DNA from: Leptolyngbya sp. 'hensonii'
Lineage (GTDB): Bacteria > Cyanobacteriota > Cyanobacteriia > GCF-001939115
DNA: 64,000 bases
Assembly (NCBI RefSeq): GCF_001939115.1
Contig: NZ_MQTZ01000012.1
Location: forward strand, 38,684-102,683
Direction of reading: 5' to 3'
How positions within the stretch are numbered: the stretch's first letter is position 1; every line of letters begins with the position of its first letter. Position numbers and translations under genes: made by a program. Below the pieces are notes generated by a model. It was not told the DNA's origin and searched no databases. It saw nothing but the letters and a program-made list of their open reading frames with translations. This document shows positions 13,310 through 20,558 of this stretch, piece after piece.

Positions 13310-14008
13310 ATGTCTATAGCTACTCTGCGCCGACTTGTGTTGCTTTGGGGCATCACGATCAGTCTGGTTTCAACCTCGATAACAATGCCTGCTCTGGCTG
13401 GACAGAAGAATTCTGATCGGGCCTCCTTTCCGGGACGACGAATTGGGGGAGGAACCCGAGGAGAATGTTTGATGAGTAGCCAGCCTCTGGTTGCCCTGAA
13501 TCCAGTCAATAACTTAGGGATAACGGCCAGCGATCGTCCTACTGTTTATTTTGCAGTTCCCAAACTGGGTGGATCCTATCCGGTTGAATTTGTTCTGCAG
13601 GATACGGATGGCAATGTGGTCTATGAAACAGCTTTAGCAGCAGGCAAAACCAAGGAAATCGTTGGCATTCGCCTGCCTCAAAATAGCCTGAAAGTTGGTC
13701 AAGACTATCACTGGTCTTTTGCGGTTGTCTGTGAACCTGAAGATCGCTCACAAAATCTGGTGCTATCCGGGTGGCTGCGACGGGTATCTTCCCAGATGGC
13801 CTCAAGCAATGAATCCAGTTTACAGGCCAGACTGGAGCAAGTGCAGTCTGCTCAAAAGGCTGGGGTCTGGAGCGACGCGATCGCGACACTGGTGGAGTTA
13901 CGTCAGGCCTATCCAGATAACGACAAGGTTCTGCGCCAGTGGGCCCAACTGCTTCAAGAATTGGAGTTGAATGCTGTTTTTGAGCCATCGATGATTGGTC
14001 AGCTCTAA
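13310..14008 (+). CDS. DUF928 family secreted protein
   Basis: A 232-residue protein with an N-terminal signal peptide (hydrophobic 10-28, cleavage likely after ALA at about residue 30), so it acts outside the cytoplasmic membrane. The DUF928 pattern follows: RRIGGGTRG, a CL near residue 49, LVALNPVNNLGITASDRPTVYF, and YHWSFAVVC near residue 142. The C-terminal part is helical (LEQVQSAQKAGVWSDAIATL). The function of the family is unknown. It is the first gene of a unit with the CHASE2-GGDEF-EAL protein (15 bases downstream) and the CHAT protease. In my knowledge of cyanobacterial genomes, DUF928, CHASE2 and CHAT genes often occur together, so this may be the ligand-binding or accessory part. 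Confidence 0.88.
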   Translation: MSIATLRRLVLLWGITISLVSTSITMPALAGQKNSDRASFPGRRIGGGTRGECLMSSQPLVALNPVNNLGITASDRPTVYFAVPKLGGSYPVEFVLQDTDGNVVYETALAAGKTKEIVGIRLPQNSLKVGQDYHWSFAVVCEPEDRSQNLVLSGWLRRVSSQMASSNESSLQARLEQVQSAQKAGVWSDAIATLVELRQAYPDNDKVLRQWAQLLQELELNAVFEPSMIGQL

Positions 14009-14023
14009 GAGGAAGTCGTCCAG

Positions 14024-16576
14024 GTGACGCGGTTCTTATTATGGACTACTGCTTTCAGTAAGCTGTTGCGATCGGGCCTTGGCCAGATTCGGCAATTCCG
14101 TGATCATCCGCTGTTAGCCCCCCATATTGTGCGGGTGGCAGTTTGTTCCGTCTTGATGTCCGGTACAGTTGTGGCCGGCTGCTGCGTTGGCATCCAGACA
14201 TTAGGCGGGCTGGAGACGCTGGAATTATTCGTTCTCGATCGGTTCGTGCGATTACATCCGGACGCACCTCCTGATCCACGCCTGCTGGTGGTCACCCTTA
14301 CAGAAGAAGATCTGCACCGCTACCGGTGGCCCCTATCGGATCAGATTCTGGCTCAGGCTCTGGAACAGCTTCAGTCCTATCGTCCCAGAGTCATTGGTCT
14401 AGATCTTTACCGTGATCTCGCAAATCCGCCCGGAGAATCTGCGCTGGCTACCCAACTGCAGGCTAAAAACCTGATTGCCATCACTGAAATTATTGGGGAC
14501 ATCCCCCCTCCACCCGGCGTTGCTGAGGAGCGAGTTGGCTTCAACGACTTTACCCTGGACCCGGATGGTGTGCTCCGCCGCAACCTACTCTTTGTAGCCT
14601 CCCCCGATCGGGACTACTCCTCCTTTGCGTTACGGGTCAGTTTGGCTTATCTCCAGCCTGAAGGAGTGCATTTCCGATATACTCCTCAGGCCCTATTTTT
14701 GGGAGCGCAGCCGATCGTACCCCTGGAGCCAACCTCTGGAGGCTATCAAATTGCCGATACGCGCGGCTATCAAACGCTCCTGAAGTATCGTACAGGCAGC
14801 GCCATTGCCCAAACAGTCACCCTTACTGATGTCCTGGAGGGTCGCGTCAATGCAGCCTGGGTGCGGGACAAGATCGTTCTACTGGGCACAGTGGCCCCCA
14901 GTCTTAAGGATCAGGTTTATACCCCCTATAGTGCCAGCCTGAAGGATACTTTCCAGATGCCAGGGGTGATTATCCATGCTCAAATGGTCAGTCAATTACT
15001 GGATATTGCCTCTGGACAGCAGCGAGAATTCCAGTTTTGGCCCCGATGGGGTGAGCTCCTCTGGGTCTGGAGTTTGACGATCGTCGGTGGATTGTTGGTC
15101 TGGAAATTAAGACATCCCCTCACTTTTGGATCTGCTGGCGTTGCTTGTCTGCTTGTGATTGGGGGCCTGGGCTGGGGATTATTTGGGCATCAGATTTGGA
15201 TTCCAGTGGCAGAACCTATGCTGGGGTTTGTTGTGGCTGTTGGTCTGGCGATGGCCCATCGGTTGTTCTACACAACAACCCGTGATCCGCTGACTGGGTT
15301 GCTCAATGGGGGAGCATGGGTGCGCCATTTAAGTCGATCACTGGCTCGCAGTTCTCGCCACAAAACCCCATTGACCTTGGGGGTGCTGTTTCTGCATCTC
15401 GATCGCTTCCAGTTAATCAGCAAGAGCCTGGGAGAGCCGAGCAGCGATATCCTGCTGTTGCAAGTCGTAACCCGTTGGCGGGCCAAACTCCCTCGTTCGG
15501 CCCGACTTGCCAGGGTCAGTCGGGATGAGTTCGTCATTTCTCTACCCCATCGGCAGCAGGAAACCTTGACTGCCCTGGCCGAACGGTTGCAGGAAGCCCT
15601 GGCAGACCCCTTTCTAATCAATCAACAACCCCTGGTGCTGACGAGCAGTATTGGGATTGCCGTCACCCAAGCCCATCATCTGCATACCCCTGAAAACTTG
15701 CTGCGTGATGCCCATACGGCAATGTACCGGGCCAAGGGAATAGGAAGTGCCCACTATGAAGTCTTCGCAGCGGGAATGTTAGCTGAGGCAGTCGATCGCT
15801 TCACCCTGGAAAATGATCTGCGACAGGGAATTGCGGCGCAGCAATTTGTCCTGTACTATCAGCCGATCATTTCCCTCAGCAGTGGAAAAATTGCGGGCTT
15901 CGAAGCGCTGGTGCGCTGGCAGCATCCTGGTCGAGGATTTATCCCCCCCCTAAAATTTATTCCCCTGGCAGAAGAGACCGGCCTCATTATTCCCTTGGGG
16001 AAATGGATCTGTCAGACAGCCTGTAGTCAGGTTTACCGATGGCAGCAACAGTTTCCCGATCATCATCTGGCCATCAGCGTTAACTTTTCGGGTCGCCAGT
16101 TCGAACAACCCGACCTGATTGAGCAATTGGCTCAAACCATTCGAGACGCAGAGATTGAAGCCTTTACCCTCAAACTCGAAATTACCGAAAGCATGGTGAT
16201 GGGAGATGTGGAAGCAGCGATTGATCTGATGTTGCGGCTCAAATCCTGCGGCTGCAAGCTCAGTATGGATGATTTTGGCACAGGCTATTCCTCTCTCAGT
16301 CAGCTTCGGCGCTTTCCCATCGACACCCTCAAAGTGGATAAGTCTTTTGTTCAGAAGATGGGGCAAAGCCCTGAAGATTATGAGATTGTCCGCATGATTA
16401 TTAATCTCGGTCACACCCTGGGAATGGATTTGATTGCTGAAGGGGTGGAAACGCAGGCAGATGTCGATGCGTTGCGATCGATGAATTGTGAATTTGGCCA
16501 GGGATATTTCTGGGCAAAACCGTTGCCTGCTGCTGAAGCAACCGCACTTCTCCGACAGCAAAGTTTACTTGCTTGA
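14024..16576 (+). CDS. CHASE2 sensor protein with degenerate GGDEF and intact EAL domain
   Basis: A membrane-bound signalling protein of 850 residues. An N-terminal membrane helix (about 40-65) is followed by an extracytoplasmic CHASE2 sensor domain (about 70-330) and three closely spaced helices (about 345-415). The cytoplasmic part has a GGDEF domain (about 425-560) whose active site reads SRDEF (499-503), so cyclase activity is doubtful, then an EAL domain (about 590-845). The EAL domain keeps EAL (627-629), the Asn of SVNFSGRQF, EITES, DDFGTGYSS, LKVDKSF and AEGVET, so c-di-GMP phosphodiesterase activity is expected. The start is a GTG after GAGGAAG. The gene lies 15 bases after DUF928 and 43 bases before the CHAT gene. 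Confidence 0.93.
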   Translation: MTRFLLWTTAFSKLLRSGLGQIRQFRDHPLLAPHIVRVAVCSVLMSGTVVAGCCVGIQTLGGLETLELFVLDRFVRLHPDAPPDPRLLVVTLTEEDLHRYRWPLSDQILAQALEQLQSYRPRVIGLDLYRDLANPPGESALATQLQAKNLIAITEIIGDIPPPPGVAEERVGFNDFTLDPDGVLRRNLLFVASPDRDYSSFALRVSLAYLQPEGVHFRYTPQALFLGAQPIVPLEPTSGGYQIADTRGYQTLLKYRTGSAIAQTVTLTDVLEGRVNAAWVRDKIVLLGTVAPSLKDQVYTPYSASLKDTFQMPGVIIHAQMVSQLLDIASGQQREFQFWPRWGELLWVWSLTIVGGLLVWKLRHPLTFGSAGVACLLVIGGLGWGLFGHQIWIPVAEPMLGFVVAVGLAMAHRLFYTTTRDPLTGLLNGGAWVRHLSRSLARSSRHKTPLTLGVLFLHLDRFQLISKSLGEPSSDILLLQVVTRWRAKLPRSARLARVSRDEFVISLPHRQQETLTALAERLQEALADPFLINQQPLVLTSSIGIAVTQAHHLHTPENLLRDAHTAMYRAKGIGSAHYEVFAAGMLAEAVDRFTLENDLRQGIAAQQFVLYYQPIISLSSGKIAGFEALVRWQHPGRGFIPPLKFIPLAEETGLIIPLGKWICQTACSQVYRWQQQFPDHHLAISVNFSGRQFEQPDLIEQLAQTIRDAEIEAFTLKLEITESMVMGDVEAAIDLMLRLKSCGCKLSMDDFGTGYSSLSQLRRFPIDTLKVDKSFVQKMGQSPEDYEIVRMIINLGHTLGMDLIAEGVETQADVDALRSMNCEFGQGYFWAKPLPAAEATALLRQQSLLA

Positions 16577-16619
16577 TCCGTCTCAATTTCACTGTCATTC
16601 ATCCTTAAGGATTAAAACC

Positions 16620-17972
16620 ATGGTATTGACTCCGCAAAAACCACAGACGAGACTCATGCAACGCTGGCGTGTCAGACTGAGCTGCTTAGGGGCGGCCCTG
16701 GCCTTTGTCGGATGCAGCGCTCTTCCAGTCTGGTCCCAAACCCTGTCTGAAAAAGTTTTGGCGATGGAAGGGGGTTTGGAGAAAGAATTTGAGACTTATT
16801 TTGGAGAGAACCTGGCCGATGTGACGCAACCGCCTGAGGAGATTGCCAAAACCCTGCAACGCATTGGCCAAAAAACCGGGACTAAACCTGCCGTTCTCTG
16901 GGCCATTCCCCGTGAAGATCACCTGCATCTGGTCTTGATTACACCAGGGGGAAAACCGATCGTGCGGGATCTCTACGATGTACCAAAGGCTAAACTGCGT
17001 CGGGCTGTGGATGCGTTTCATCTGGAGATGTACAACTCCCCTAAGCGCGTCAAGATGACTGCGGCTCTACAACTCCATGATTGGATGATCAAACCCTTTG
17101 AAGCCGAATATCTCCAGGCTGAAGGGATTGACACGATTCTGTTTTGCCTGGGCAATGGCCTGCGGAGTCTGCCTTTGGCAGCCCTTTATGATGGCAAACA
17201 ATTCCTGCTGGAAAAGTATAGTGTGACGCGCATTCCCGCTTTCAATTTGATTCAGACGGACTATGTGAATCTTCAGCAAGGTCAGATTCTGGCCATGGGA
17301 GCATCCAAATTTCAAGATCAAAGTCCCTTGCCTGCGGTTCCCCTGGAGCTTTCCAACATCTTGCGGGAGTTGCAGACAGCAAGACCGAATGAGTATCGCT
17401 GGAAAGGTCGATCGTTCCTGAATCAGAGTTTCACCCTGGCCAATCTGCAGCGGTTAGTTAAAGCCCAGCGCCCAAACATTGTCCATCTGGCAACCCATGC
17501 GATGTTTAAGCCTGGCAAACCGGATAACTCGTATATCCAGCTCTGGGACTCTAAGCTGGGTTTAGACAAGATCCGCCAGGTGAACTGGGGATCTCCATCT
17601 CTGGAATTGCTGGTGCTCAGTGCCTGCCGAACCGCCATTGGCGACGATGAAGCGGAACTGGGCTTTGCTGGGATAGCCCTGAAATCCAAAGTCAAAACAG
17701 TTCTGGCTAGTCTCTGGAACGTCAGCGATGAAGGCACGCTGGCTCTGATGAGCGAATTCTATCGCCAACTGGGGACCACCTCCACCAAAGCGGAAGCCCT
17801 CAGACAGGCTCAATTACGGATGCTGCGGGGAGAAATTCGGATTGAGGGCAAGCAACTGGTACTTTCACGGGGACCGATCCAATTACCCCCAGAGTTGGGC
17901 AACAAATCCGCTGATGATTTGTCTGCTCCTTTCTACTGGGCTGGATTTACCCTCATCAGTAGCCCCTGGTAA
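16620..17972 (+). CDS. Secreted CHAT-domain (caspase-like) protein
   Basis: This 450-residue protein carries a CHAT domain (caspase HetF associated with TPRs) over about residues 150-450. The catalytic pair is visible: His293 in HLATHAMF and Cys336 in LSACRTA. The first 45 residues form a signal peptide (RVRLSCLGAALAFVGCSALPVWSQ region) with a possible lipobox around FVGC, so the protease is probably exported or lipid-anchored. No TPR repeats are seen, unlike many CHAT proteins. I use the ATG at 16620, preceded by TAAGGA; an upstream ATG lies inside the EAL gene. The pairing with a CHASE2 sensor and DUF928 suggests proteolysis in the periplasm under the same signal; this is inference. Confidence 0.9.
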   Translation: MVLTPQKPQTRLMQRWRVRLSCLGAALAFVGCSALPVWSQTLSEKVLAMEGGLEKEFETYFGENLADVTQPPEEIAKTLQRIGQKTGTKPAVLWAIPREDHLHLVLITPGGKPIVRDLYDVPKAKLRRAVDAFHLEMYNSPKRVKMTAALQLHDWMIKPFEAEYLQAEGIDTILFCLGNGLRSLPLAALYDGKQFLLEKYSVTRIPAFNLIQTDYVNLQQGQILAMGASKFQDQSPLPAVPLELSNILRELQTARPNEYRWKGRSFLNQSFTLANLQRLVKAQRPNIVHLATHAMFKPGKPDNSYIQLWDSKLGLDKIRQVNWGSPSLELLVLSACRTAIGDDEAELGFAGIALKSKVKTVLASLWNVSDEGTLALMSEFYRQLGTTSTKAEALRQAQLRMLRGEIRIEGKQLVLSRGPIQLPPELGNKSADDLSAPFYWAGFTLISSPW

Positions 17973-18084
17973 GGGAATCTCCTGAAAATCCTTGGTCGGG
18001 TATATTCCCATGACAGTTGATCAAACGGGAGAACCACGGTGGTTCCAGAGACCTGCACTCAGGTATTAAGTTGTTTTAAGAACA

Positions 18085-18129
18085 TCCCCGATGTTGCAGC
18101 GGAATTCCTGCTGATGTTTACATCGGGGA
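18085..18129. terminator. Strong hairpin downstream of the CHAT gene
   Basis: A perfect 10-bp stem (TCCCCGATGT/ACATCGGGGA) encloses a second, inner inverted repeat (AGCGGAATTCCTGCT). There is no clear T tract. It sits between the CHAT gene and the remnant of a hydrolase gene on the other strand, so it may end transcription from either side. A smaller hairpin GAACCAC/GTGGTTC lies just before it at 18032-18046. The rest of the gap from 17973 to 18167 shows nothing else. Confidence 0.5.
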
Positions 18130-18167
18130 ATAAACTCTGATGTGCTGTCTTACATTTGCGCCTCGTC

Positions 18168-18517: not shown

Positions 18518-19881
18518 ATGAATCGTCGTAATTTCCTCAGAATAACTGGAGCTACTCTAGTAGCTCAGATCATCCAGGATTGCACCCAATCTGATCAAAA
18601 TCCTCACGAACAACGAGTTTTGGTGGTTGGTGCGGGTGTGGCTGGTTTGGCAGCTGCAAAGACCCTGGTTCAAAACGGCTATGATGTTTCGGTGATTGAG
18701 GCAAGAGATCGAATTGGGGGGCGCGTTTGGACCCATTCTAAATGGGGAGATGCTCCGATGGATTTAGGCGCTTCCTGGATTCATGGCATCCAGGGCAATC
18801 CATTGGCAGACATCGCAAGCACCCTCAAAGCTCGCACAGTCATGACCCGTTATGACAGGGATATCACCTATAAGACGACGGGTGAAGTACTCAACGATGA
18901 GGAGGAACTCCGGATAGAAAAGCTACAAAAGAAGATCCTGCGAGTTCTCCGTAAGGCGCAGAATTATGATCCAGATCAATCTGTGCAGAAGGCCGTTGAA
19001 ACTGGTTTACGATGGGCAAATCTCTCCTCTGAGGAAAGGAAACTGGTTGGGTTCATCTTAAACAATCTCCTGGAGCAGGAATATGGCGGGAGCACGGCAG
19101 AGTTATCCGCCCAATGGTTTGATGCAGCTGACGAGTTTGGAGGAGGGGATGTCCTTTTTGTGGATGGCTATGGCGCGATCGCTGAATATCTGGCCAGAGA
19201 TCTTCCGATTACCCTAGGGCAGCAGGTGCGCAGCGTTCAGATCAATTCAGGGAAAGTCACAGTCAGCACCGATAAAGCCACCTATTCGGGAGACCGGGTG
19301 ATCATCACCTTGCCCCTGGGAGTGCTCAAAACAGGCCAGATTACGTTTTCGCCTGCTTTGCCCGAGAACATGCGTCAGGCCATTTCAGCCTTGGGCATGG
19401 GCGTGCTGAACAAATGTTATCTTCGCTTTCCCAGAGTGTTTTGGCCGTCAGAGTTCGACTGGCTGGAGTACATCCCTGTCCAACATGGGCAATGGGTCGA
19501 GTGGGTCAGTTTTGCCCGTCCAACCAAACTGCCGATCTTGCTGGGGTTTAATGCGGCTGATTTTGGGCGTGAAGTTGAATCCTGGACCAATGAAGATATT
19601 GTGGCAGGTGCCATGGAAACTCTACGAACCATCTTCGGCGATCGCATCCCCAGCCCAGTCGATTATCAGATCACCCGTTGGGCCTCAGACCCGTTTGCTT
19701 TGGGTTCCTATTCGTTCAATCAACTGGGGTCAACACCCATGATGCGCGATTACCTGGCACAGAACATAGAAAGCAGGATTTTTTTGCTGGCGAGGCCACC
19801 CATCGCCAGCACTTCGGTACAGTTCACGGTGCCTATCTATCCGGGTTACGAGCGGCTCAGGAAATCATCCACCTGGCATGA
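18518..19881 (+). pseudogene. FAD-dependent amine oxidase, frameshifted near the 3' end
   Basis: A flavin monoamine oxidase with a twin-arginine-type signal (NRRNFLRI) at its N-terminus, the dinucleotide-binding motif VVGAGVAGLAAA (about 36-47), RDRIGGRVWTH and DLGASWIHG. The protein follows the family until a run of seven T at 19779-19785. In the frame before the run the C-terminus becomes unrelated and stops at 20011. In the next frame the expected ending FFAGEATHRQHFGTVHGAYL appears, finishing HLA at 19881. One T appears to be missing (seven instead of eight). FAGEAT is the conserved FAD-contact motif, so the shift as read would disable the enzyme. It may be a real mutation, a phase-variable tract or a sequencing error. 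The substrate (amine or amino acid) is unknown. Confidence 0.8.
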
Positions 19882-19895
19882 TCGAGATCGTCCGA

Positions 19896-20558
19896 CTAGG
19901 AACTGCCCCTACCCATCTCTGGCCCAGACTCGCCCCGATCGGAGGCCCTGGAGGGTTTGCAAATGTCTGATTTCAGGGATGCCAGATCAATGTAGCGATC
20001 GGCAATGTTAATCAGGTGTTCACTGGTGAGCGATCGGAGGCACACCAGCTCGGTACGAATTCCCCGGTAAGCCACCGCATCCAATGCATAGGCCAGTTCT
20101 CCGTCCCCACTAACTAGAACCACAGTATTGCAACATTCGGCCAATCTCATCATGTCGATCGCCATTTCGACATTCAGGTTGACTTTGATGGAGCCGTCTG
20201 GAAAGTGAATCAGATCCTTCGCAATCACCCGATATCCGTTGCGTTGCATCCAGTACAGAAACTGCTTCTGTTTCTCATTGGCAGGATCAAGGCCCGTATA
20301 AAAGAAAGCATGAACAAGCCAGCTATCTCGTACCAGATAGGAGAGTAAGCGGGCATAATCAATCTCAATTTCCAGATGCATAGCCGCATAGAACAGGCTG
20401 GAGGCATCTATGAGAAGCAACACCTGACCTCGATCGGCCAGATCCAGGCCAATTCTTTCCCGACCCAAATTTGATCCCTTGGGAGCTGGTGAGCGTCTCG
20501 CATTTCTTGCTTCAGAATCATCCGAATGGGGGGGTTTGGGGGGGACAAGTTGAACCAT
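19896..20558 (-). CDS. NYN-domain protein (LabA/DUF88 family)
   Basis: A 220-residue protein with a PIN-like NYN domain (about residues 42-195). The acidic catalytic positions are visible in LLLIDASSLFYA (Asp near 50), VNLNVEMAIDMM (Asp near 134) and LVSGDGELAYAL (Asp near 152). Such domains bind Mg2+ and in several relatives cleave RNA. The first 40 residues are charged and probably disordered. The family includes LabA, which tunes circadian output in Synechococcus elongatus, but assignment of that role here is not justified. It lies 21 bases downstream of a small conserved protein on the same strand, so the two are probably co-expressed. Confidence 0.88.
   Translation of the reverse strand: MVQLVPPKPPHSDDSEARNARRSPAPKGSNLGRERIGLDLADRGQVLLLIDASSLFYAAMHLEIEIDYARLLSYLVRDSWLVHAFFYTGLDPANEKQKQFLYWMQRNGYRVIAKDLIHFPDGSIKVNLNVEMAIDMMRLAECCNTVVLVSGDGELAYALDAVAYRGIRTELVCLRSLTSEHLINIADRYIDLASLKSDICKPSRASDRGESGPEMGRGSS

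Follow-up and report, generated by a model that had tools for sequence, protein, structure and literature searches.

A conserved DUF928, CHASE2-GGDEF-EAL and CHAT locus as a candidate surface-signalling module in cyanobacteria

Three adjoining genes of Leptolyngbya sp. 'hensonii' raise the question of whether a DUF928 protein, a membrane sensor that probably breaks down c-di-GMP and an exported CHAT protein act as one system at the cell surface, and in which direction the signal would run. The genes lie at positions 13310-17972 of a stretch of 64,000 nucleotides, which was analysed as a whole and is called the window here, and all three are on the + strand. Pfam identifies them as DUF928, CHASE2-GGDEF-EAL and CHAT genes, the same three-gene unit that was named in the original prediction. 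The features are listed below.

13310..14008, + strand: DUF928 protein, 232 aa, predicted to be secreted (Pfam PF06051 8e-50; alignment; AF2 model)
14024..16576, + strand: CHASE2-GGDEF(degenerate)-EAL membrane protein, 850 aa, GTG start (Pfam; topology)
14177..15094, + strand: CHASE2 domain, predicted extracytoplasmic sensor, residues 52-357 (PF05226 4e-66; AF2 model)
15278..15745, + strand: degenerate GGDEF domain (Pfam 2e-28; SRDEF at 15518-15532, residues 499-503)
15812..16522, + strand: EAL phosphodiesterase domain (PF00563 8e-81; residue table)
16620..17972, + strand: compact CHAT protein, 450 aa, predicted to be exported (PF12770 6e-60; orthologues)
16620..16736, + strand: CHAT signal peptide, cleavage at about ALPVWS before QT (conserved position; A-x-A before Q in orthologues)
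17496..17498, + strand: His293 of the CHAT dyad (His in 41/41 compact CHATs)
17625..17627, + strand: Cys336 of the CHAT dyad (Cys in 41/41 compact CHATs)

The EAL gene starts at GTG 14024, 15 bp past the DUF928 stop, with AGAGGAAG just before it. The CHAT gene begins with ATG 16620, 43 bp past the EAL stop and preceded by AAGGA, and a purine-rich ribosome-binding stretch is thus present before the second and third genes. The mechanical open reading frame of CHAT begins at 16488, within the EAL gene; ATG 16620, not 16488, is plausibly the true start. The nearest gene upstream of the trio is on the opposite strand about 790 bp away, and about 545 bp downstream of CHAT are free of genes until the next one. 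Judged by gene spacing only (gaps of 15 and 43 bp), the three genes are likely to be co-transcribed as one operon. Promoter and terminator scans of the locus performed no better than shuffled sequences. A GC-rich stem-loop without a T-run lies 3' of the CHAT gene (18083-18130 of the window). The window also holds a flavin amine oxidase gene (18518-20011, + strand), the C-terminal end of which shifts frame near 19770. The typical family end, FFAGEATHRQHFGTVHGAYLSGLRAA, sits in another frame, and this is therefore a frameshifted gene or a sequencing error.

The DUF928 match covers domain positions 2-180 of 184. A signal peptide is predicted at about residues 1-30, with cleavage between MPALA and GQ. 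A signal-peptide-like hydrophobic segment at the N-terminus was found by a crude scan in 20/20 linked DUF928 relatives, which bears out the earlier description of this protein as secreted. Two Cys residues are invariant among 22 aligned DUF928 proteins, and such a pair would be in keeping with an oxidising compartment. The AF2 model (pLDDT 78.7, pTM 0.77) predicts a beta-sandwich with a three-helix TPR-like end. A fold search with this model returned only weak beta-sandwich matches (query TM about 0.3-0.4), including carbohydrate-binding modules and pilus chaperones, which were used as an indication of fold type only. Comparison of the DUF928, CHAT and CHASE2 sequences with solved structures gave nothing useful. 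A LysM-DUF928 fusion, found at another locus (L119, 8992-10251), adjoins a CHASE2 gene and the gene of a 3211-aa TPS protein.

The second gene encodes a sensor with its N-terminus inside, a transmembrane segment at about residues 39-57 and at least two more at 370-411. This topology supports the predicted extracytoplasmic position of CHASE2, and the AF2 model of this part consists of a transmembrane helix, an alpha/beta domain and transmembrane helices; a fold search with it gave no match with E < 0.001. The GGDEF domain carries SRDEF in its A-site instead of GG[D/E]EF, and its first metal-site Asp is replaced (LHLDRF). The EAL domain aligns to solved GGDEF-EAL proteins and retains 9/9 catalytic or associated residues (E, R, N, E, D, D, K, E and Q) as well as an intact DDFGTGYSS loop. 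The combination of an SRDEF motif and an intact EAL domain had been predicted correctly.

The same condition extends to the relatives of this sensor. In a tree of 43 CHASE2-GGDEF-EAL proteins, the window protein belongs to a clade of 13 members with support of 100/100, and DUF928 is directly upstream of the sensor in 13/13 (-4 to 62 bp). The GGDEF motif is degraded in all 13, in ten spellings (SRDEF, SQDEF, NCEDF, NGDDF, SGDDF, SSDDL, GEGEF, GQEEF, GRDEF and DEDDC). The 37 other aligned proteins have GGDEF in 35 cases, GGDDF in one and GNDEF in one. In contrast to this decay, E627, R631, N687, E719, D749, D750, K770, E806 and Q826 are kept in 13/13 EAL domains of the clade. Identity of GGDEF versus EAL is 0.49 versus 0.74 within the clade and 0.47 versus 0.60 outside it, so GGDEF trails EAL more within the clade. 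These data suggest that cyclase activity has been lost in the clade, while phosphodiesterase activity appears to be still under selection. Because GGDEF is degraded and all nine EAL residues are intact in 13/13, a phosphodiesterase-only output of the sensor is very likely. An intact GGDEF persists in five proteins that are linked to DUF928 but fall outside the clade (L062, L111, L121, L190 and L229); therefore, DUF928 linkage alone is not tied to degeneration.

With the CHAT protein of the third gene as query, 340 genomes of the class yielded compact CHATs of about 440-495 aa with 45-80% identity, together with longer CHATs. A crude scan found an N-terminal hydrophobic segment in 37/40 compact CHATs, and the window protein is among the three misses solely because its over-extended reading frame was scanned. 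In close relatives, the cleavage site has the same position and reads ASA, AFA or AHA before Q. This comparison lends support to the signal peptide of the original prediction, and its His293/Cys336 pair is numbered exactly when counted from ATG 16620. Export signals and topology together support the extracytoplasmic placement of DUF928, CHASE2 and CHAT, which had been predicted to face the periplasm. The exported CHAT is a putative caspase-like protease; proteolysis is not established for this compact subfamily, and the word protease is used here in a predicted sense. A lipoprotein signal (FVGC) was considered and rejected, as its Cys is not kept in orthologues. Pfam finds CHAT alone in the window protein, without the TPS domain PF05860. 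Two residues past the dyad His (17502-17504), the CHATs of the trios and of L153 have Val or Met, whereas an acidic residue prevails at this position in the other compact CHATs, and this difference may mark a change in specificity.

The co-occurrence of the three genes was followed through the neighbourhoods of 40 compact CHATs. The full trio was found in six other genomes, in two taxonomic families and in two gene orders, so the absence elsewhere that had been named as a ground for refutation was not encountered. With the window, the trio genomes number seven from only two lineages, and five of them are of one genus. One locus (L154) has the order DUF928-CHASE2EAL-CHAT of the window, and five (L155-L159) have CHAT-DUF928-CHASE2EAL. 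The sequences show the gene order, the domains, the export signals, the intact EAL and CHAT residues, the degraded GGDEF and the conservation of the cluster. CHAT is linked to 7/13 clade sensors and unlinked in six, two of these on short contigs. In one genome (G189), the closest CHAT stands alone (L153) and a DUF928-CHASE2-EAL pair lies elsewhere (L223); the other five sensors are in genomes without a CHAT orthologue of this type, where the best match is 46-51% identical. These results indicate that DUF928-CHASE2 is the core, to which CHAT is repeatedly but not obligatorily added. Since CHAT is facultative (7/13) and stands mostly alone, its control by an outside signal through CHASE2, as in the original prediction, is a hypothetical step.

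The DUF928-CHASE2 core recurs far beyond the trio. Forty DUF928 loci from other genomes were chosen by DUF928 score alone, as the best-scoring loci and not as a random draw; neighbourhood profiles were built from few seeds, and selected proteins were checked against Pfam. CHASE2 is within 6 kb in 24/40 of these loci and within 1 kb in 20, 19 of which have both genes on the same strand. A separate CHAT is present in 11, a CHAT-CHASE2 fusion in five, a TPS-CHAT domain pair in seven and ShlB in eight, and one or more of CHASE2, CHAT and ShlB occur in 30/40. The outputs of the DUF928-linked CHASE2 proteins are EAL (17), cyclase (15), N-terminal CHAT (9), kinase (1) and unrecognised (3). Thus, DUF928 repeatedly accompanies CHASE2, regardless of whether the output is adenylate cyclase, EAL, histidine kinase (all cytoplasmic) or fused CHAT. 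Distances between paired DUF928 and CHASE2 proteins correlate (r 0.75, reached in 0/2000 permutations), also within each output type (r 0.92 within EAL), which fits a stable pair, although co-inheritance of linked genes alone could yield the correlation. Long CHATs near DUF928 begin with a TPS secretion domain (PF05860; L086, L088 and L121) and are therefore exported too. The window trio is a single member of a family of CHASE2/DUF928/CHAT loci that extends much further in cyanobacteria.

Several arrangements within this family may be recorded. The genome of the window has four DUF928-CHASE2 places, and the other three are each near a TPS or ShlB gene. An array in this genome (L072, contig C20, 8349-16958) holds a CHAT-CHASE2 fusion, DUF928, a TPS protein and a separate CHAT on one strand, as a larger version of the window theme. 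A tight same-strand run of DUF928, TPS-CHAT and CHASE2-GGDEF-EAL with intact GGDEF (L121, 9508-15375) resembles a surface-secreted version of the trio. A DUF1822 gene is directly beside a CHAT-CHASE2 fusion and DUF928 in three loci (L087, 12910-13875; L102; L110).

The reading favoured for the trio is an outside-in envelope-signalling operon with a DUF928 partner, an EAL phosphodiesterase output and a CHAT protease, and as a whole it is given about an even chance. The exported DUF928 would be an extracytoplasmic co-receptor or signal carrier for CHASE2. The CHASE2 protein would relay the signal inward to the EAL phosphodiesterase, by which c-di-GMP would be lowered, while the GGDEF domain is predicted to be catalytically dead and regulatory at most. 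The exported CHAT would be active as a caspase-like protease in the same extracytoplasmic layer and would most likely process a surface ligand, DUF928 or CHASE2, so that the signal is made or ended. Contact between DUF928 and CHASE2, the direction of signalling and both enzymatic activities are inferred. The target of CHAT is the least certain step, as CHAT may serve the maturation of a ligand or partner or may be an independent neighbour.

According to the latter explanation, DUF928 and CHASE2-EAL signal alone, and CHAT is beside them by chance or for shared expression. CHAT is missing beside 6/13 related sensors, compact CHATs are unlinked in about 30 loci and stand alone in most genomes that have one, and G189 keeps CHAT and DUF928-CHASE2-EAL far apart. 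However, linkage exists in two gene orders, which fall in separate subclades of both the CHAT and the sensor trees. Furthermore, CHAT (separate or fused) is within 5 kb of 13/40 DUF928 loci versus 0/31 stand-alone CHASE2-GGDEF-EAL loci. No DUF928, CHAT, TPS or ShlB was found in up to 20 kb of these 31 loci, a set partly picked for absence of DUF928 and hence a fair control for CHAT, TPS and ShlB. An independent CHAT is regarded as doubtful.

An inside-out switch of the LapD/LapG type, in which GGDEF-EAL reads c-di-GMP and CHASE2 holds or frees an extracytoplasmic CHAT protease, is improbable. Both share the plan of a GGDEF-EAL protein that is set in the membrane, has a domain outside the cytoplasm and a dead GGDEF, and is encoded next to an exported cysteine protease. 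However, the EAL of LapD from Pseudomonas fluorescens is degenerate, with KVL in place of EAL and loop 6 lost (PMC3032553), whereas EAL is intact here in 13/13. Exported CHATs also adjoin CHASE2-adenylate cyclases; these serve as outputs rather than as receptors of c-di-GMP. No LapG family member (PF06035) was found in the genome of the window or in 140 genomes searched. The extracytoplasmic part of these loci is constant and the cytoplasmic output variable, which therefore supports outside-in sensing and disfavours the inside-out switch. A cell-death or kin/predator-recognition system, with exported CHAT as effector and the other genes sensing the trigger, is highly improbable: CHAT is caspase-like, CHAT-CHASE2 fusions and TPS-CHATs exist and TPS proteins are often contact-dependent effectors, but the operon was found to contain neither an immunity-like gene nor a polymorphic toxin tail nor a NACHT/STAND partner, and a phosphodiesterase output suggests control of lifestyle over death.

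Returning to outside-in sensing, the trio is a real, conserved module, apparently undescribed in the literature searched, with a partly inferred mechanism. CHAT proteins are usually discussed in cytoplasmic immunity. If an exported caspase-like CHAT is tied to second-messenger sensors, CHAT shifts from there to the cell surface, and the trio offers a new module of surface signalling that can be put to the test. Two papers report that the ligands of CHASE2 are unknown (PMC10581220, PMC5192318), and the recurring DUF928-CHASE2 pairing provides a testable partner for both families. By tentative extension, a widespread cyanobacterial class can be imagined in which CHASE2 receptors with interchangeable outputs are gated by exported CHAT together with DUF928 as adaptor. 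It is possible, and no firmer, that CHAT is secreted in this class directly or by TPS, and that the receptors, with cAMP, c-di-GMP or phosphorelay outputs, are in effect protease-activated.

The earlier statement that no such system has been described holds for the literature searched, which included few subscription papers, but the unit belongs to the far wider family described above. In that literature, nothing joins CHASE2, CHAT and DUF928, CHASE2 was not found with 'CHAT domain' in cyanobacteria, and DUF928 appears in one paper, with no function beyond one acid-stress note. That paper, which cites the acid-stress report on sll1891, describes NOSP7 as the sole genome, out of seven in its survey, with a CHASE2-DUF928-WD40 cluster (PMC5587647). 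It is the only printed record found of CHASE2 beside DUF928, and it differs in its single genome, its WD40 proteins and its lack of CHAT and EAL. A metacaspase-CHASE2 fusion is known from Trichodesmium (PMC3501461). The CHASE2-GGDEF proteins Dgc2 of Leptolyngbya (PMC10581220) and Alr1219 of Anabaena (PMC13075795) also tie CHASE2 to c-di-GMP turnover; in contrast, they make c-di-GMP, and the accessible parts of these papers report no DUF928 or CHAT partner. Beyond the plan shared with LapD and LapG, the window sensor has an intact EAL and CHASE2 in place of the LapD periplasmic domain and HAMP, and its partner is CHAT (PF12770) and not PF06035. LapD membership was rejected (Pfam finds CHASE2, GGDEF and EAL only; the LapD model scores 110 bits versus a cut-off of 1020), as was LapG membership on the absence of PF06035. 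The CHASE2 adenylate cyclases CyaD1, CyaD2 and CyaK of Sinorhizobium meliloti act with NsrA (PMC13001267), so that an outside signal likewise reaches a second messenger via CHASE2 with the aid of another envelope protein; they differ in cAMP synthesis and in an outer-membrane barrel partner, and CHAT and DUF928 are not mentioned there. The BiofilmReg operon of Burkholderia pairs a LysM-FecR protein with a CHASE2 histidine kinase (PMC5192318). The window trio falls outside this LysM/FecR-CHASE2 kinase type by Pfam, with DUF928 for FecR, EAL for the kinase and response regulator, and CHAT added. Both, however, place an exported partner gene beside a CHASE2 sensor, and the cyanobacterial DUF928 of L119 has LysM as well.
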